Of a stretch of 64,000 nucleotides of DNA, positions 7,067 through 15,437 are shown piece after piece. Positions within the stretch are counted from its first letter, which is position 1; each line of letters opens with the position of its first letter. Position numbers and translations under genes: made by a program. The notes beneath the pieces are model-generated. The model saw nothing but the letters and a program-made list of their open reading frames with translations. It was not told the DNA's origin and made no database searches. The DNA comes from Guyparkeria hydrothermalis (GTDB taxonomy: Bacteria; Pseudomonadota; Gammaproteobacteria; Halothiobacillales; Halothiobacillaceae), in the NCBI RefSeq assembly GCF_023555385.1, contig NZ_JAJSED010000001.1, forward strand, positions 1,240,001-1,304,000, read 5' to 3'.

Positions 7067-8053
7067 TCAGCCGCCGGTCATCGACATGAAGCGGACCACT
7101 TTCTCGGGTTTTTCGGTGAACTCGTGGCGCTCGGGCTTGAGAGCGATCGCCTGCATCAGCGCCTCCTTGAGCTCGTCGTCGGGAATGCCCTTTCGCAGCA
7201 GCGGGCGGAAGGAAAAGCTCTCCTCCTGTCCCAGGCACATGTACATGGTGCCGTCGCAGGACAGGCGCACGCGGTTGCATGTCTCACAGAAATGGTCGGA
7301 CATCGGGGTAATGAAACCGACCATGGTCTCGGTACCCGCCACCTGCAGGTAGCGCGCCGGACCGGCGCCGGTGACCGAGTTGACTGCGGGAATCAGGTCG
7401 TATTTCGCCTTGAGGCGCTTCTTGACGTCCTGCAGGCTGACGTAGCGATCGATGGCGTCGCGGCCGGTCTCGCCCATCGGCATGGTCTCGATCATGCGCA
7501 GGCTGAAACCGTTGTCGATGCAGTAGTCGAGCAGATCTTCCATGTCGTGCTCGTTGAGGTCCTTCATCACCACGGCATTGATCTTGATCGGATCGAAGCC
7601 GGCATCCTTGGCGGCGGCCAGGCCGTTGAGGACCTTGTCGACCTTGCCTTTGGTGATCGACTTGAAGCGCTCGGGATCGAGTGTGTCGAGGCTGACGTTG
7701 ATCCGATCGGCCCCGGCGGCGCGCAGGGTCTCGGCCATCTTGTTCATGCGGGTGGCGTTGGTCGACAGGGACACGTCCTGAATGCCGGGCATCGACGCGA
7801 CCCGGCCGACAATGTCCTCGATGCCCTTGCGCACCAACGGCTCGCCGCCGGTGATCCGCACATGGGAGAGGCCCATGTCGGCCATCACGCCCACCAGGCG
7901 CTCGATCTCGTCGGGGGTGAGCCAGTGCTCGGGGACCTCGAAGTCCTTGAAGCCCTCGGGCATGCAGTAGAAACAGCGCAGGTCGCAGCGGTCCGTCACG
8001 GACAGCCGCAGGTAGTTGATGGAACGTCCGAAGGGGTCGGTCAACTGCTGCAT
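7067..8053 (-). CDS. moaA: GTP 3',8-cyclase MoaA (radical SAM)
   Basis: 328 residues from the ATG at 8053. MoaA converts GTP to 3',8-cyclo-dihydro-GTP, the first step of molybdopterin synthesis. The radical-SAM cluster cysteines are C23, C27 and C30 (CDLRCFYC), followed by the SAM-binding ITGGEP. The second C-terminal cluster site reads CETCNRVRLSC, and the protein ends in the functional Gly-Gly pair (MTGG). MoaC, which completes the step, is encoded 277 bases upstream on the same strand. The gap holds inverted CATAACG/CGTTATG motifs and may contain a separate moaA promoter. A GTG/ATG further upstream (8080) is possible but less typical. Confidence 0.96.
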   Translation of the reverse strand: MQQLTDPFGRSINYLRLSVTDRCDLRCFYCMPEGFKDFEVPEHWLTPDEIERLVGVMADMGLSHVRITGGEPLVRKGIEDIVGRVASMPGIQDVSLSTNATRMNKMAETLRAAGADRINVSLDTLDPERFKSITKGKVDKVLNGLAAAKDAGFDPIKINAVVMKDLNEHDMEDLLDYCIDNGFSLRMIETMPMGETGRDAIDRYVSLQDVKKRLKAKYDLIPAVNSVTGAGPARYLQVAGTETMVGFITPMSDHFCETCNRVRLSCDGTMYMCLGQEESFSFRPLLRKGIPDDELKEALMQAIALKPERHEFTEKPEKVVRFMSMTGG

Positions 8054-8237
8054 TGTCTTGTCAGCCCTTGCCTGGACCATGCCGACATCCGAGTGGCATG
8101 GGTGTCTGAAAGAAGCGTGACCGGCACGGCGGCCGATCGCGCGGGAATGGGTCCGGCCGGGACCGAGGGGTCGGAATCGGCCTCGACCGGAGCCTGCTAT
8201 GCAGGAGCAAGTGAAACGTGCGTCATGTTCACTTGGA

Positions 8238-8301
8238 CATAACGGTATCAGCCACGCATGAAAATGCAAGCGTTATGGCGAGACAAACCGAACGGATAAC
8301 G
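8238..8301. promoter_or_regulatory. Inverted CATAACG/CGTTATG repeats upstream of moaA
   Basis: In the 277-base gap between moaC and moaA, CATAACG (8238-8244) and CGTTATG (8271-8277) form a 7-bp inverted repeat around an inner GCAT-GAAA-ATGC hairpin. A third ATAACG is at 8296-8301. These hexamers resemble half-sites of the molybdate regulator ModE, but the spacing (19 bases between CGTTAT and ATAACG) differs from the E. coli site as I remember it. An operator or a structured moaA leader are both possible. Confidence 0.35.
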
Positions 8302-8329
8302 CACGATCAACGTGGCCGGCGGCCTGGCG

Positions 8330-8818
8330 TCAGGACGCGGCGTCGGCCTGCCAGTGGCCGCTCTTGCCGCCCCGCTTCTCCAGCAACCGGGTCTGCTCGA
8401 TCACCATGCCGCGATCGACGGCCTTGCACATGTCGTACAGGGTCAGCGCGGCAACCGAGGCAGCGGTCAGCGCCTCCATCTCCACGCCGGTCTGACCGGT
8501 CACGGCACACTCGGCGGTGATGTGCACGGCATGCTGTTCCGGCTCCGGCGTGAGCTCGACCTTCACCTTGGTGAGCATCAGCGGGTGACACATCGGGATC
8601 AGATCGCCGGTGCGCTTGGCCGCCATGATGCCGGCGATCCGCGCGGTGGCGAGTACGTCGCCCTTCTTGTGGCCGCCCGAGAGGATCAGCTCTAGGGTCT
8701 CGGGCTGCATGACGATGCGTGACTCGGCCACGGCGACACGCTGGGTGTGCGCCTTGTCGCCAACGTCGACCATGCGGGCCTCGCCCTTCTCGTCCAGGTG
8801 GGTGAGTGTGCGGCTCAT
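8330..8818 (-). CDS. moaC: Cyclic pyranopterin monophosphate synthase MoaC
   Basis: 162 residues. MoaC turns the MoaA product into cyclic pyranopterin monophosphate. Diagnostic stretches are [16 protein letters not shown] near the N-terminus, [13 protein letters not shown] (the substrate-binding CHP motif), [24 protein letters not shown] and a C-terminal [10 protein letters not shown]. The ATG at 8818 overlaps the moeA stop codon by the ATGA arrangement, so moeA and moaC are translationally coupled. Length matches the family (about 160). Confidence 0.96.
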
Positions 8819-10008
8819 AGACCAAGCTCCTTGAAGGCGGTGAATTCGACTGTATCGCCGGCGGCAAGACGGGCTCCGGGCGGGATCAATGCAAGGCCGT
8901 CGGCCCAGGCGAGCGAGCTCAACAGCCCCGAGTTCTGGTCCGGGTAGACGTCGAGCATCACCCGACCGTCGACCTCGACACGGCGCACGCGGATGTACTC
9001 CGGCCGATCCCCACCGGTTCTCGCCGAGGCCAGCGGCAGCGGCAGCGTCGGCCACGCGCCGGGATCTTCCTGCCCGGCCAGCCGGTCGATCGCCGTACGC
9101 ACAAAGCGCAGGTAGGTGACGAAAGTGGAAACGGGGTTGCCCGGCAGGCCGAGGAACGGCGTGCCCAGCACCTCACCGATTGCCAACGGCTTGCCCGGCT
9201 TGAGGAAGATGCGCCAGTGATCGATGCGTCCCAGCGCCTCGACTCCGGCGCGCACCAGGTCGGCCTCCCCCACCGACACACCGCCGGAGGTGACGATCAG
9301 GTCGGCCTCGGCCGCCTCGCGCAGGCGCGCGTCAATTTCGGAGCGGTCATCGGGCAGCACGGCTCGCTGGACGATCTCGACACCAGCAGCAGCCAGCAGC
9401 ACCTCCAGCATCGGCCCGTTGGCATCGTAGATCTTGCCCGGCGCGAACGGATCGCCGGGCGCGAGCAGCTCGTCACCGGTCGTCAACAGGGCCACGCGCA
9501 CCCGCCGACCGACCGTCACTTTTGCCTGCCCCGTGCTGGCGAGCAGGCCGAGCATGGCGGCCGTGACACGCGTGCCGGCGGACAACAGCCGCTCGCCTTC
9601 ACGCGTATCCGCACCGGTCTGACGCACGCCATCGCCCTGCGAGACGTCAGCCTGCCAACAGGCCCGGTCGGCATCGATCTCGACGGATTCCTGGGCGATG
9701 ACCGTATCGGCCCCTTCCGGCAACAGCGCCCCGGTAAAGATGCGCATCGCGGTCCCTGGCTCGAGGGTCGCGGGCGGGTCGCCGGCGAACTGCTTGCCGA
9801 CGACCGGACACGACTCGCCGGCCACCAGAGGGCCGGCACCCGCGTAACCGTCGAACAGGCTCAACGGGGCAACCGGCACGTCGCGCGGCGCGGTGACCGG
9901 CTCGGCCAGCACCCGGCCGACCGACTCGAGCACCGGCACCTGCTCGGCATCCCCGAGTGGCTGGATCCAGTCGCGCAGGCGCGCAACCACGTTATCGACC
10001 GTATCCAT
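8815..10008 (-). CDS. moeA: Molybdopterin molybdotransferase MoeA
   Basis: 397 residues from the ATG at 10008. MoeA inserts molybdate into adenylylated molybdopterin to give active Moco. The protein shows the MoeA order: N-terminal domain with [17 protein letters not shown] (substrate loop), the [11 protein letters not shown]-like [15 protein letters not shown], the MogA-like core with LLTTGDEL and [23 protein letters not shown], and a C-terminal beta domain. It lies 16 bases after moaE. An in-frame GTG four codons upstream (10020) is an alternative start. Confidence 0.95.
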
Positions 10009-10024
10009 CGGCGCGGCCACCCCT

Positions 10025-10498
10025 TCAGTCCTCGAACTCGGCAAACCAGCGGCGGCGCGCCGCCTCGTCGCTCTCACGAGCATCCACCCAGCGGGTGTTG
10101 CCCTCGGGATCAACCTCCTTCTTCCAGAATGGCGCGTGCGTCTTGAGGTAATCCATGATGAAGGTGCAAGCATCCAGCGCATCACGTCGGTGGGCACTGG
10201 CGACCGCGACCAGCACGATCTGATCCGTGGGCCGCAGGTGACCCACTCGATGAACGATGCTCACGCCGGCCAGTGGCCACCGGGAAATCGCTTCGTCCGC
10301 CACCCGTCCCAGGGCGCGCTCGGTCATGCCCGGATAGTGCTCGAGCACCAGGTCGCTGACCTCGAGATCGTCGTTGATGTCGCGCACGGTGCCGAGGAAG
10401 CTCGCCACCGCACCCACATGAGCGCACTGCGAACGCAGTTCGCCGAGCACACCGCCGATGTCGAAATCGGCCTCTTGAACACGAATGGAACGGTACAC
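10025..10498 (-). CDS. moaE: Molybdopterin synthase catalytic subunit MoaE
   Basis: 157 residues from a GTG at 10498 (VYRSIRVQEADFDI), chosen because it gives the usual MoaE length and lies 30 bases after a good promoter. MoaE transfers sulfur from thiocarboxylated MoaD onto precursor Z. Family stretches are GAVASFLGTVRD, LEHYPGM, HRVGHLRPTDQIVLVAVASAHR and TFIMDYLKTHAPFWKKE, which carries the catalytic lysines. No moaD gene lies next to it, which is unusual because MoaD is its obligate partner; it must be elsewhere in the genome. First gene of moaE-moeA-moaC. Confidence 0.94.
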   Translation of the reverse strand: MYRSIRVQEADFDIGGVLGELRSQCAHVGAVASFLGTVRDINDDLEVSDLVLEHYPGMTERALGRVADEAISRWPLAGVSIVHRVGHLRPTDQIVLVAVASAHRRDALDACTFIMDYLKTHAPFWKKEVDPEGNTRWVDARESDEAARRRWFAEFED

Positions 10499-10534
10499 GG
10501 TTGCTGTCGATGCCCTTCTGGATATTTCCGGCAG

Positions 10535-10563
10535 ACTATAACGGTCCGGCGTGCGCCGGCCAA
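10535..10563 (-). promoter_or_regulatory. Sigma-70-type promoter for moaE-moeA-moaC
   Basis: On the minus strand TTGGCC (10563-10558) and TATAGT (10540-10535) are separated by 17 bases. Transcription would start near 10528, leaving a leader of about 30 bases before the moaE GTG. Confidence 0.6.
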
Positions 10564-10666
10564 GGGCGTTATTGCCGGGGCGCGGTAGCATGCCGCCTGG
10601 CCAGGAAGCCCGCTTGAAGCCGCCTGCATGACTGATACCCCATTAAATGTTCAAAACCGGCCTCGG

Positions 10667-10695
10667 TTGTTAATTAGAACCCTCTGATGTAGATT
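10667..10695 (+). promoter_or_regulatory. soxC: Candidate sigma-70 promoter for soxCD
   Basis: TTGTTA (10667-10672) and TAGATT (10690-10695) are spaced by 17 bases in an AT-rich patch within otherwise GC-rich DNA. If used, it gives a leader of roughly 210 bases before soxC, long enough to hold the small ORF and the hairpin described below. Confidence 0.45.
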
Positions 10696-10746
10696 GCTGC
10701 CGGTTCAAATTTTTGATCCGGTGGTCGATCATGGACCCCTGTCTGG

Positions 10747-10787
10747 ATTGACCCGACCGGAAGACCCATGAACAATAGCGGGTCAAT
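10747..10787. promoter_or_regulatory. 9-bp inverted repeat upstream of soxC (possible operator)
   Basis: ATTGACCCG (10747-10755) and CGGGTCAAT (10779-10787) are exact inverted copies whose centres are 32 bases apart, about three helical turns. The element lies downstream of the putative soxC promoter and overlaps the start of the small ORF at 10768. A regulator site is possible; it may also pair in RNA. Confidence 0.35.
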
Positions 10788-10935
10788 TGGCGACATCGGC
10801 AAGCCGCCGGCCTGTCCTCAAAAATGCGCGCCTTGCGGTTGTCGGAGAACCGCAAGGCACGGAATGGATCGAAATGAGTTGATCCGACCAATTGCCTACG
10901 ATGCAGGAGTGAGCAATGTCAGAAACCACACTTGA
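10768..10935 (+). CDS. Small Cys-rich ORF in the soxC leader (possible leader peptide)
   Basis: A 55-codon frame too short for routine gene calling. The ATG at 10768 is preceded by GGAAG at a spacing of about 5. The product has four cysteines in a tight cluster, C16-PQK-C20-AP-C23-G-C25, encoded exactly where the perfect hairpin at 10830-10858 begins. The stop codon at 10933-10935 lies 20 bases inside soxC, so its translation would run through the soxC ribosome-binding site and start in another frame. This arrangement is what a cysteine- or sulfur-responsive leader peptide would look like, but no homologue is recognised and chance is possible in GC-rich DNA. Confidence 0.3.
   Translation: MNNSGSIGDIGKPPACPQKCAPCGCRRTARHGMDRNELIRPIAYDAGVSNVRNHT
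10830..10858 (+). promoter_or_regulatory. Perfect 11-bp hairpin in the soxC leader
   Basis: GCCTTGCGGTT and AACCGCAAGGC pair exactly around a 7-base loop GTCGGAG. No T-run follows on the plus strand, so it is not a plain terminator for rightward transcripts. On the minus strand it is followed by GCGCATTTTTG, so it could end leftward transcripts. It overlaps cysteine codons of the small ORF, 58 bases before soxC. Confidence 0.5.
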
Positions 10936-12289
10936 TCAGACGCCGCAGAGCGATGCCCGCGAGGGCGTGGCTTCCAGCGACCGTCGCAAATTCCTCCGCA
11001 AGAGCGTCGCGCTGGCGGCATCTGGCGCTGCCGCTGCAGCCGCCGGCAATGCCTACGCAGGTGACGTCAAGCTGGAGACCGTAACGGATCCGCTGAAGCC
11101 TGGCGCGACCCGCAACATCCTCGGCCGCGGCGTGGTATCCGTTCCTTACGGCATGCCGTCGAAGTTCGAGAAGCACGTCGTTCGTCGCAACGTCAGCTGG
11201 CTGACCGCCGATACCGTCGCCTCGATCAGCTTCACCCCGTGGCAGGACCTCAACGGCATCATCACGCCGAACGGCCTGCACTTCGAGCGTCACCACGCCG
11301 GTGCCGTCGACGTTGATCCTGAGACCCACCGCCTGGTTATCCACGGCATGGTCGACAAGCCGATGATCTTCACCATGGAAGATCTCAAGCGCATGCCGTC
11401 GCACACCGCGATCCACTTCCTCGAGTGCCCGGCCAACGGCGCAATGGAATGGCGCGGCGTCCAGATGGACTCCATGCAGTTCACCCACGGCATGATGGCC
11501 TGCTCCGAGTGGACCGGCGTCAAGCTGACCGACCTGATGGAGTACGTTGGTGTCGATCCGAAGTCGACCTGGCTGTACGCCGAAGGCACCGACGGTTCTG
11601 CCCTGCAGCGTTCCATCCCGATGGAAGGCGCCAAGGACCAGTTCGGCGAGCCGCTGCCGGCTGACAGCTGCGAGATGTACAAGGACGCGATGATCGCCTA
11701 CGCCCAGAACGGCGAAGCGCTGCGTCCGGAAAACGGCTACCCGATCCGCTTCCTGCTCCCGGGCTGCGAAGCGAACATGTCGATCAAGTGGCTGCGCCGC
11801 ATCAAGTTCGTCGACAAGCCGCTGGTCACCTACCAGGAGACCCGCCACTACATCGAGCCGCTGCCGGATGGCACCATCCGCCAGTTCTCGCTGGTGAACG
11901 AGACGAACTCCGTCATCAACTACCCGTGCCCGGACAACCAGATGAAGGGCAAAGGCGCCTACGAGATCCGTGGTATCGCCTGGTCGGGTCGCGGCAAGAT
12001 CGCTCACGTCGACGTATCCGTCGATGGTGGCAAGAACTGGAAAGAGGCCGAACTGGTCGAGCCGGTCATGAGCAAGTGCGTGACCAAGTTCAAGCTGCCG
12101 TTCGAGTGGAACGGGGACGAGCACCTGATCATGAGCCGGGCCACCGACGAGACCGGCTATGTCCAGCCGACCCTGATGCAGCTGCGCAACGTTCGCGGCA
12201 CCAACAGCATCTACCACAAGAACTCCATTCAGGCCTGGAAAATCGAGAAGACCGGCGAGGTGAAGAATGTCCAAATTGAAAACTTCTAA
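10916..12289 (+). CDS. soxC: Sulfane dehydrogenase molybdenum subunit SoxC
   Basis: 457 residues with a twin-arginine signal (SSDRRKFLRKS, residues 20-30; probable cleavage after AYA-48), so it is exported folded with its Moco. SoxC, with SoxD, oxidises SoxY-bound sulfane sulfur in the thiosulfate pathway. The sulfite-oxidase fold is clear: the molybdenum-ligating cysteine is C171 in HFLECPANG, and ANGEALRPENGYPIRFLLPG, IKWLRRI and VDVSVDGGKNW match SoxC. Oddities: PGCEAN at 282-287 where Paracoccus SoxC, as I recall it, has PGWEGN, and extra residues at about 240-255. The ribosome-binding site AGGAG sits 8 bases before the ATG. It overlaps soxD by 23 bases. Confidence 0.95.
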   Translation: MSETTLDQTPQSDAREGVASSDRRKFLRKSVALAASGAAAAAAGNAYAGDVKLETVTDPLKPGATRNILGRGVVSVPYGMPSKFEKHVVRRNVSWLTADTVASISFTPWQDLNGIITPNGLHFERHHAGAVDVDPETHRLVIHGMVDKPMIFTMEDLKRMPSHTAIHFLECPANGAMEWRGVQMDSMQFTHGMMACSEWTGVKLTDLMEYVGVDPKSTWLYAEGTDGSALQRSIPMEGAKDQFGEPLPADSCEMYKDAMIAYAQNGEALRPENGYPIRFLLPGCEANMSIKWLRRIKFVDKPLVTYQETRHYIEPLPDGTIRQFSLVNETNSVINYPCPDNQMKGKGAYEIRGIAWSGRGKIAHVDVSVDGGKNWKEAELVEPVMSKCVTKFKLPFEWNGDEHLIMSRATDETGYVQPTLMQLRNVRGTNSIYHKNSIQAWKIEKTGEVKNVQIENF

Positions 12290-12920
12290 GTTCGGCCTGG
12301 GTCTTGCCGCTGGTGTGATGGCCCTGGGCCTGAGCACCGCCGGTATCGCAGGCGGTTTCAACGGCATCGGCGCGAACATCACCGAGAAAGCCGTCGATCC
12401 GTGGGACATCAGTGTGTTCTACGACGGCACCAACCTGCCGAAGGGCTCGGGCACCGTCGAGGCGGGCCAGCAGCCGTATGACGCCAAGTGCGCCATGTGC
12501 CACGGCGCGTTCGGTGAAGGCGCCGAGGGCTACCCGAAGATGGCCGGCGACCCGATGCCCGCGTTCATCCAGTCCCTCAAGCAGGGCCTCGATGGCGTAG
12601 GCAACCGTGGCGTGAACAACGCTTGGGGCCACGCTCCGACGCTGTTCGACATGATCAAGCGCCACATGCCGTTCTACGCACCGGGCACCATGGGTGTTGA
12701 CGAGTCCTACGCTGTCACCTGCTACGTCCTGAACCTGGGCGGCATCGTCGACATGGACTTCACCTGCAGCAACGAGACGCTCGCAGACGTCGACATGCCG
12801 GCACGTGAGTACTACGTCACCGACACCCGTCCGGACGTGGACAACAAGCGTTGCATGAGCGACTGCTACGACGAGAAGCCGAAGGTTGTCGGCGCCGCGG
12901 TAACCGGCGTCAGCGAGTAA
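12267..12920 (+). CDS. soxD: SoxD-like cytochrome c subunit, single heme
   Basis: 217 residues with an N-terminal signal (residues about 8-29, ending AGIAGG). One c-type heme site is visible, C75-AM-C78-H79 in CAMCHG, with downstream methionines (for example MPFYAPGTM) as possible axial ligands. SoxD accepts electrons from the SoxC molybdenum centre and passes them to the respiratory chain. Paracoccus SoxD is larger and carries two hemes; here there is no second CxxCH. The C-terminal CMSDCYDEK pair is not a heme motif. The start lies 23 bases inside soxC, indicating translational coupling. Identity as the SoxC partner rests on this coupling and the KMAGDPMPAFIQSLKQG-type sequence. Confidence 0.88.
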   Translation: MSKLKTSKFGLGLAAGVMALGLSTAGIAGGFNGIGANITEKAVDPWDISVFYDGTNLPKGSGTVEAGQQPYDAKCAMCHGAFGEGAEGYPKMAGDPMPAFIQSLKQGLDGVGNRGVNNAWGHAPTLFDMIKRHMPFYAPGTMGVDESYAVTCYVLNLGGIVDMDFTCSNETLADVDMPAREYYVTDTRPDVDNKRCMSDCYDEKPKVVGAAVTGVSE

Positions 12921-12945
12921 ATCGCGACAAACTCTCGGTAAGAAA

Positions 12946-12973
12946 AAGCCCCGCCACTGGCGGGGCTTTTTTT
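12946..12973. terminator. Bidirectional terminator between soxD and atpG
   Basis: A 10-bp stem AAGCCCCGCC/GGCGGGGCTT with the loop ACT, T7 on the right and A5 on the left. It ends the rightward soxCD transcript and probably also the leftward ATPase operon, whose atpG stop codon is at 13000. Confidence 0.92.
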
Positions 12974-12999
12974 GTGTCCGGCAATCCTGTTCCGGCCGC

Positions 13000-13878
13000 C
13001 TAGCCGAGGGCCTCGAAGCTCGCGATCAGATCGAACAGCTCCGCGTCGATACCGCTCTGCCGCTGGTGATGAAAGCGCGTTTCGAGCCGTTCGAGCATGT
13101 CCTCGATATTGCGATCGGCCCGTTGCATGGCCGCCAGGCGAGCCGCGTTTTCGCTCGCCAGCGACTCGGCACAGGCCCGGAACAGCGTCACAAACAGATA
13201 CTCGCGCAGCAGGGCCCGCAGGGTGTCTCCCCCCTCCCCCATCACCTCGGGCAGGTTGTTCGTCGGCCATGGCTGATCCCTGAGTGAGACGAGCCAGTCA
13301 CGATCCAGCGGCAACAGTCGCCGGTGAGTCGGCTCGAACGGGGCATCGCCGCCCGGCCGATTGTGGAACAAGTGCAGTTCGGTTGCCTCGGTATCACCCA
13401 GCTGATCCTCGTTTGCCAGCAACAGGCGGCCAACCAACTCGCCGACCCCGTGGACGCCAGCGGGCACGTCGAAGCGCCCCTGCACCGCCAGGCCAAGATC
13501 CAGTAACCGCGCCTCCACACGTTCGCCGACCGCCCACAGATGCAATGTGTCGCCCTCTCCTCCGAGGCGACGCCCGGCGACGGCCGCGATCCGCTCGTTG
13601 AACTGGCCGGCCAGCCCCTGATCGGACCCGAACACGATAGCCACCCGCACCCTTTCGCCTCGATTGCCCGCCGGTGCCGGAACCGCCTCGCCAGCCTTGC
13701 CCCTCAACGCGGCCGCCAGCCCCAGGGTGACCGTCCGGTGGTAGTCCTCCAGGGCACGCACCGACTCCTCGAACTGGCCGATACTCGATGCCGAGAGCGC
13801 CTTCATTGTCTGCACGACCGATTGCAGGTCACGTGCGCTCTCTATCTGGTGACGCAATGCCAGCATGCCTGCGGTCAC
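13000..13878 (-). CDS. atpG: N-ATPase gamma subunit
   Basis: 292 residues. The gamma subunit forms the rotating stalk inside the catalytic head. The N-terminal coiled-coil [24 protein letters not shown] and the C-terminal [48 protein letters not shown] match the family ends. The GTG start overlaps the atpA stop (GTGA); an ATG four codons on is an alternative. As in other N-ATPase operons this is the last gene, and the middle of the protein is divergent from ordinary AtpG. The terminator is 27 bases further on. Confidence 0.9.
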
Positions 13879-15437
13879 GAGGTCGTCCCTTCCTGACTGT
13901 CCTCCGGGTTTACCGCAATCGATGCCACCGCATCCCGCGCCACCTCGATGATGCGTGCATGCTGCTCCGCCGTCACGACCTCCCCCGCCTGCAGACGTCG
14001 GCGCAGGGCCTCCGGCAGGTCCGTCACGGCCGCCCGCAACGCGTGCTCGGCCTCGGGCATCCGCTCCAGAGGCACTCGTTCGAACAATTGCTCGTTGAGC
14101 GCCATCAGCACTACCAGTTGCTCGGCCACGGGCACCGGGCTTGCCTCTGGCTGTCTCAGGCTGGCCCGAATGCGTCGACCGTGATCGATTCGGCGCCGCG
14201 TGTGCTCGTCCAGCCGCGCACCGAAACGGGCGAAGGTTTCCAGCTCCTCGAACTGGGCGTAGGCGAGCTTGAGAGCTCCGGCTTCGCGACGGAATGCCTT
14301 GAACTGTGCCTTGCCGCCCACTCTGGAAACCGACTTGCCCACGTCGACTGCCGGCAGCATGCCGAGCTCGAACAGCGACGGCGACAGGTAGACCTGCCCG
14401 TCGGTGATCGATATCAGATTGGTGGGAATGTAGGCCGAGATGTCCTGCGCCTCGGTCTCGATGATGGGCAACGCGGTCAGGGAACCGCCACCCTCCTCCT
14501 CGCGCAGGTGAGTCGCCCGCTCGAGCAGCCGCGAGTGGATGTAGAAGATATCGCCGGGAAAGGCCTCGCGCCCCGGCGGCCGGCGCAACAGGAGGGAGAG
14601 CTCACGGTAGGCGCGCGCATGCTGGGTCAGGTCGTCGTAGACGATCAGCACATCCTGCCCTTCGGCCATCAGGTGCTCGGCTATGCTGGTGGCCGCATAG
14701 GGTGCGATGTAGGAAAGTCCCGGCGGGCCGTTGCCCTCGGTCACCACGACAGTGGTGTATTCCATCGCCCCATGCGCACGCAGCGTGGCAACGGCCTTGG
14801 CCACCGACGCCGTGCGCTGCCCGATCGCGCAGTAAAGGCAGAAGACGTTCTTGTCGCGCTGGTTGAGAATGGTGTCGATCGCTATGCTGCTCTTGCCCGT
14901 CTGGCGGTCGCCAAGGAGCAGCTCCCGCTGGCCGCGGCCTATCGGGATCATGGCGTCGATCACCTTAATCCCGGTCTGCAGCGGCTCGGCTACCGGGGCG
15001 CGATCCATAATCGCCGGCGCGGGACGTTCGATCGGCAGACGACGACTACCACGCGGCGCCGGCCGATCGTCCAGCGGCCGGCCCAGCGGGTCGATGACAC
15101 GCCCGATCAGCTCCTCGCCAACCGGCACATCCATTACCCGGCCGGTTCGTTCCACCTCGTCCCCCGCCTGGAGCTGCCAGTGCTCGCCGAGCAGCACCAC
15201 CCCGATCTCGTCGGCATCGACGTTGAACGCGATGCCCATGACGTCGCGCGGGAATCGCAGCAGTTCCTCGTAGCCGACATTCGGCAATCCGGTCACCCGC
15301 GCGATACCCGCCGACGCACTGCGCACGTGACCGATTTCACGCACGCCGATCCGGGGCGCGAACGAGTCGCAGGCCTCGCCAAGACCACGCAGACCCTGCT
15401 CGAGTTCGTTGGCGAGCAGCTGGTCGGGCGCCGTCAT
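13875..15437 (-). CDS. atpA: N-ATPase alpha subunit
   Basis: 520 residues from the ATG at 15437, whose ATGA overlaps the atpF stop. The non-catalytic nucleotide-binding subunit of the F1 head: P-loop GDRQTGKSS at 176-184, [45 protein letters not shown] and the alpha signature region [12 protein letters not shown]. It is shorter in the N-terminal part than some F-type alphas, consistent with a head that lacks a separate delta subunit. Downstream atpG overlaps by 4 bases. Confidence 0.93.

Follow-up and report, generated by a model that had tools for sequence, protein, structure and literature searches.

Hairpins in the 5' leaders of bacterial operons are known from several regulatory systems. 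In leaders controlled by CsrA/RsmA, such as those of the glgC type, GGA is found both in the loop of an upstream hairpin and in the Shine-Dalgarno (SD) sequence; leader hairpins bound by small RNAs present an exposed, invariant loop on a stable stem near the start of the operon; and the trp, his and leu attenuators place a small reading frame near a hairpin ahead of the operon. The hairpin described here (H1), which precedes soxCD in Guyparkeria hydrothermalis, shares features with each. Like the CsrA-type leaders, the soxCD leader has GGA in an upstream hairpin loop and in the SD, in a family that encodes CsrA, but the loop and closing pair of H1 do not fit the CsrA motif, the loop is invariant throughout and there is one strong site per genome. 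As in the small-RNA-bound leaders, there is a stable stem with an exposed, unvarying loop near the operon start, although a search for its 11-nt complement did not find a partner RNA. A small frame lies near H1 as in the attenuators; here, in contrast, neither the frame nor its codons are conserved, and a scan of positions 10500-13200 gave no plus-strand terminator-like site, and so none before soxC. Rfam (release 15) holds structured cis-regulatory leaders of this general type, but H1 matches no family in the loci searched, whether at positions 8000-14500 up to an E value of 1 or in five other loci of the family (L004, L011, L014, L019 and L022) up to 0.5. Among the literature matches listed, no title or abstract opening mentions an RNA element at soxC, and a soxCD leader hairpin is described nowhere in the literature searched at that level.

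The window, by which we mean the whole 64,000-nucleotide stretch of DNA that was analysed, is part of one 2,392,942-base contig. It contains a molybdopterin-subunit gene that, from its protein family and the gene order, we take to be soxC, and the start of soxD overlaps the end of this gene by 23 bases (Table 1). Excerpts of a published account credit Guyparkeria sp. SCN-R1 with a complete soxABXYZCD set (PMC6504805).

Table 1. Features of the soxCD locus, in positions of the window.
Feature	Position	Strand	Description
Conserved DNA block	10634-10725	+	Upstream of the proposed promoter; from the alignment and leader listing
Distal pair P1	within 10634-10725	+	TTGTTA-N17-TAGATT; weak, read by eye; absent from the promoter scan output
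Promoter-like pair P2	10748-10776	+	-35 TTGACC (10748-10753), 17 nt, -10 AACAAT (10771-10776)
Cys-rich frame	10768-10935	+	55 codons, ATG start; no Pfam match; judged non-functional
Hairpin H1	10830-10858	+	Arms 10830-10840 and 10848-10858; loop GUCGGAG (10841-10847); invariant U-A, U-A closing pairs
Hairpin H2	10866-10885	+	GGATC (10866-10870) with GATCC (10881-10885); loop of variable length
Possible RBS hairpin	10891-10917	+	ATTGC (10891-10895) with GCAAT (10913-10917); from the consensus fold
soxC	10916-12289	+	Sulfane dehydrogenase, molybdopterin subunit; Pfam PF00174 (Oxidored_molyb), PF03404 (Mo-co_dimer)
soxD	12267-12920	+	Cytochrome c subunit; Pfam
moaE		-	Flanks the stretch on the side opposite soxC; Pfam MoaE

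The perfect hairpin to which the initial annotation had drawn attention is borne out, with an 11-bp stem and a 7-nt loop, and ends 57 bases upstream of soxC. The window has only one other perfect hairpin with a stem of 11 bp or more and a loop of 3-10 nt, the terminator-like one that follows soxD. When counted as listings, in which one hairpin can appear several times, the window gave four, and six first-order Markov simulations gave 1, 3, 0, 0, 0 and 2. By itself, then, H1 is only mildly unusual against chance, and the judgement rests on conservation, which supports the hairpin and not the peptide frame. The covariation set comprised 16 leaders (11 of them distinct), aligned gap-free over 35 bases around the loop centre. 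Across it, eight of the 11 stem pairs have changed on both sides and one on one side, while the two loop-closing U-A pairs do not vary, and loop and closing pairs together (UU-GUCGGAG-AA) are identical in all 16. Paired cells make up 92.6% of the stem, against 67.4% in shuffled alignments, cells with changes on both sides number 32 against 12.4, and the covariation score is 0.744 against 0.256; none of 500 shuffles, which ignore relatedness, came as high on any of these measures, and versions of the stem slid along the alignment scored at most 0.245. The bare count of eight doubly changed pairs is weaker (shuffle mean 6.2, with 30 of 500 reaching eight), and at the seventh position just 10 of the 16 leaders have a standard pair. 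One further leader, from genome G026, was left out of the set and of model building and thus provides an independent confirmation: its match, at the end of a contig and immediately upstream of a ribosome-binding site of soxC type, has nine of 11 standard pairs in a rewritten stem under the same loop plus one U. In all 16 leaders folded, assuming a start at P2, the predicted probability of pairs 3-5 is at least 0.97, and that of an unpaired loop 0.91-0.93. H1 is almost certainly a real RNA structure. The suggestion that an RNA structure in this leader might control soxC has in this respect gained support, the alignment of related leaders having revealed compensatory changes in the stem.

Turning to its distribution, a covariance model search of 27 genomes of the family returned one strong match in each of 16, all before soxC, together with the weak match in G026 (E 0.002). 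Among the ten genomes that gave no match, three yielded no soxC (G004, G006 and G008, which are 64-85% complete), two have contigs that begin inside soxC (G010 and G020), and five have soxC behind a different leader (G011 and four genomes of the genus g3). A second match in G017 (E 0.0045) has the stem without the loop and was rejected, and the window holds no further match to the model. Under stricter filters, which lose weak matches, four of 369 genomes matched in a sample of the class, all of them in the family; in a sample of the phylum, also under stricter filters, the three matches among 398 genomes were the source genome itself and two at E 0.005 and 0.007, which we take as chance. H1 is lineage-restricted, being found in two genera only, Guyparkeria and Halothiobacillus. 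The searches did not recover it from the remaining two genera of the family, which have different hairpins ahead of soxC. The g3 leaders have a long upstream hairpin, with the loop UGUGCAA in all four that could be read (L021, L022, where the loop lies near 1400, L023 and L024), and by eye its stem differences seem to preserve pairing; the single g2 leader has a long upstream hairpin with the loop GGCUCGA. A second hairpin, wholly different in sequence, stands at the place of H2 in both genera in single-sequence folds. From these five sequences, folded singly, the order of elements seems to be common to the family though the sequences differ.

Downstream of H1, the arms of H2 are identical in the 16 aligned leaders and in G026. 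The possible hairpin around the ribosome-binding site, which is missing from some individual folds, would hold the SD (AGGAG, 10905-10909) mostly in its loop and leave the start codon partly paired. Since both structures are almost invariant in the two genera, covariation cannot test either. Silent sites in soxC were compared in six Guyparkeria and nine Halothiobacillus genomes, with G007, whose contig ends inside soxC, omitted. In Guyparkeria, silent sites differ at 0.011 over codons 1-30 (10916-11005) and at 0.03-0.29 in the remaining full blocks of 30, with a value almost as small (0.031) for codons 271-300; in Halothiobacillus, codons 1-30 differ at 0.207, against 0.40-0.49 across codons 31-420, and codons 421-450 stand at 0.21. 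Two genes served as controls. For moaE, with codons numbered from a motif close to the start and the short final block omitted, the first 15 codons gave 0.30 in Guyparkeria (mean of the remainder about 0.38) and 0.40 in Halothiobacillus (remainder about 0.53); the start of soxD gave 0.13 against 0.07-0.47 and 0.30 against 0.37-0.57, respectively. Low silent variation is common at the starts of genes, so the dip in soxC is supportive only. Silent variation is also strongly reduced in both genera over the last 35 or so codons of soxC (to 12289), which adjoin and overlap the start of soxD.

Upstream of H1, P2 scores nine of 12 promoter matches in the window. Its hexamers and 17-nt spacing are kept in all 17 leaders, over a spacer of variable sequence, with AACAAT or AAGAAT (AASAAT) or, once, AAAAAT as the -10 box. 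From P2, the soxC transcript would be expected to start at about 10782-10785. A perfect 9-bp inverted repeat, ATTGACCCG/CGGGTCAAT at 10747-10755 and 10779-10787, spans the -35 box and the region just past the -10 box in the window, and is kept in relatives only in part. The conserved block further upstream contains TGATACCCCATTAAA, TTGTTAATTAG and CTGATGTAGATT, is partly common to Halothiobacillus, and may be a second promoter or a site for an activator. A sox-wide regulon is unsupported, both motifs examined being essentially single in the genome: CTGATGTAGATTG, with at most one mismatch, has this block as its sole site, and TGATACCCCATTAAA matches exactly here alone, with one further place at two mismatches.

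The same region carries the reading frame on which the initial annotation had centred, proposing either a leader peptide at whose Cys codons ribosomes stall or a peptide that binds metal. The frame is present as described, with 55 codons, Cys at positions 16, 20, 23 and 25 and GGAAG before its ATG, and it extends past the start of soxC. Frames of at least 40 codons are common here (59 overlap positions 8500-14500), and at least four Cys within ten residues occur in three of the 229 frames of 40-80 amino acids in the window, this one included; the cluster is uncommon, yet within chance for a frame chosen by eye. If such a frame were translated, ribosomes stalled on it could alter the fold of the leader, and its ATG is indeed kept in 16 of 17 leaders, nine of which, all from Halothiobacillus, have a common 7-codon frame. 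The ATG, however, abuts the -10-like box of P2, whose fixed 17-nt spacing can account for its conservation, and if that box is used the start of the frame lies outside the transcript. Use of the weak distal P1 would give a longer transcript that includes the frame, so we reject the peptide on the comparison of leaders and not on the promoter alone. From the homologous position, the frame has 55 codons in three of the 17 leaders (the window, G001 and G009), 38, 37 and 13 codons in one each, seven in the nine from Halothiobacillus, and no stop in the stretch read in G005 and G026, the latter with GTG in place of ATG and the 7-codon stop lost. The peptides of G001 and G009 are nearly alike and have no Cys; they match that of the window in the first six codons and in the tail across the soxC ribosome-binding site, and are unlike it over codons 7-37. 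In the closest relative, G005, whose SoxC is 98% identical, the cluster retains only C16, joined by a Cys at 26, with more Cys beyond the position of the window's stop, and GGAAG is altered in five of the seven Guyparkeria leaders. With frame, length, Cys codons and SD all unconserved, both the stalling and the metal-binding proposals fall, and a leader peptide is by this comparison extremely unlikely. The small Cys-rich protein is probably not real, to judge from the sequences; we take the Cys peptide to be a chance product of the sequence that makes up the hairpin and the promoter.

What, then, might H1 do? A loop that is exposed and invariant while its stem is free to vary is the usual sign of recognition in trans, and the combination seen here favours a reading by a small RNA or an RNA-binding protein. 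We therefore lean, with moderate confidence, towards a cis-acting RNA element in the soxCD 5' leader whose loop is read in trans to set translation or stability, the transcript start, the trans recognition and the level and sign of control being what we infer. In this model, transcription would probably start near 10783, and in the resulting leader, about 130 nt long, H1 would be followed by H2 and perhaps by the weak hairpin around the ribosome-binding site. Selection preserves base pairing in H1 together with every letter of its loop, so GUCGGAG is most likely read by a kissing small RNA or an RNA-binding protein; this factor would control how soxCD mRNA is translated or degraded, independently of the other sox clusters. 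Exact searches for the 11-nt complement TTCTCCGACAA, within whose reach a 7-nt kissing partner does not fall, found the leader as the sole match in seven of the 17 leader genomes (G003, G005, G009, G017, G022, G024 and G025) and additional matches in the other ten. Candidate partners in cis were rejected. When the best four complements per leader were taken between -140 and +150, 15 of 16 leaders had one place in common, near +110 in soxC, that could pair at least six letters with the loop region (G-U allowed). The pairing needs G-U, however, its register is not the same in the two genera, and shuffled loops matched this result in 26 of 100 cases. Likewise, in each of the seven leaders from Guyparkeria, GUCGGA could form an intramolecular kissing interaction or pseudoknot with UCCGAC, which lies partly within the 3' arm of H2 and partly beyond it, but by eye Halothiobacillus lacks UCCGAC. 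When H1 was blocked in silico, SD accessibility rose in some species and fell in others; with so inconsistent a shift, H1 is not a simple cis switch.

One known candidate for a reader of the loop is CsrA, which is encoded in 23 of the 27 family genomes, including the source genome, and which might bridge the GGA of the H1 loop and the SD (CAGGAG) so as to block ribosomes until CsrB/RsmZ-like small RNAs relieve it; this would itself be a case of trans recognition. GGA is found in the H1 loop, the 5' arm of H2 and the SD of the 16 aligned leaders, but in H2 it sits in the stem, and the H1 loop of the four readable g3 leaders is without it. The CsrA loop motif is (A/U)CANGGANG(U/A), with an A-N-GGA core and a C-G closing pair, from which the loop UGUCGGAGA deviates: set against the motif, UGUCGGAGAA keeps GGA and is without the A two positions before it and without the C-G closing. 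CsrA would, moreover, not account for the invariance of every loop base and of the UU/AA pairs, and near the locus the one match of CsrB/Rsm type, to RsmY, is below threshold and covers the terminator-like hairpin that follows soxD. We consider repression by CsrA unlikely.

Equally, H1 might have no partner at all and merely stabilise or insulate the mRNA, with its loop fixed by a tertiary fold of its own or by nuclease resistance. The strong stem in the 16 folded leaders would suit such a role, as would an SD whose accessibility in silico depends on H1 in no one direction, and relatives carry other hairpins at the same place. Stabilising hairpins, however, usually stand at the very 5' end, and about 45 nt would precede H1 if P2 is used; a purely structural role also rarely fixes all seven bases of a loop, which makes this explanation quite improbable. 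We judge it very unlikely that H1 acts as a terminator or attenuator, or as a DNA site for a transcription factor. A minus-strand terminator-like call does cover it (stem 10861-10827, then CATTTTTGAG), but no recognised minus-strand gene reads into H1, the plus strand has no U-run after it, and termination would not require the loop to be invariant. Operators can be palindromes lying upstream of a gene, but it is their arms that are conserved; in H1 the arms vary and the non-palindromic centre is fixed.

A selected RNA element on soxCD argues for regulation of at least this cluster after the start of transcription. With SoxCD, the Sox system can take sulfane sulfur all the way to sulfate, and the dosage of SoxCD therefore bears on the accumulation of sulfur. 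A more specific version of recognition in trans, which we put forward as a tentative possibility, is that a dedicated small RNA or RNA-binding protein recognises GUCGGAG and adjusts the dosage of SoxCD against the rest of Sox, the sister genera doing the same job by different loops that have changed along with their partner. Such a factor, if it exists, would decide between full oxidation of thiosulfate to sulfate and the deposit of elemental sulfur. According to excerpts of a published study, sulfur accumulates on these cells, and inhibition of SoxCD by low pH could explain the accumulation (PMC9032823).

Beyond the leader, the second perfect hairpin of the window, at 12943-12971 on the 3' side of soxD, is bordered by runs of A and T. 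Nine weak Rfam matches were obtained over positions 8000-14500: one at 14341-14431 and eight, with the sub-threshold matches to the Leu and Thr leaders among them, at 12819-13050, across this terminator-like hairpin. The hairpin probably terminates transcription in both directions, from soxD and from convergent genes on the minus strand, which from their translations we take to be ATP-synthase-like.
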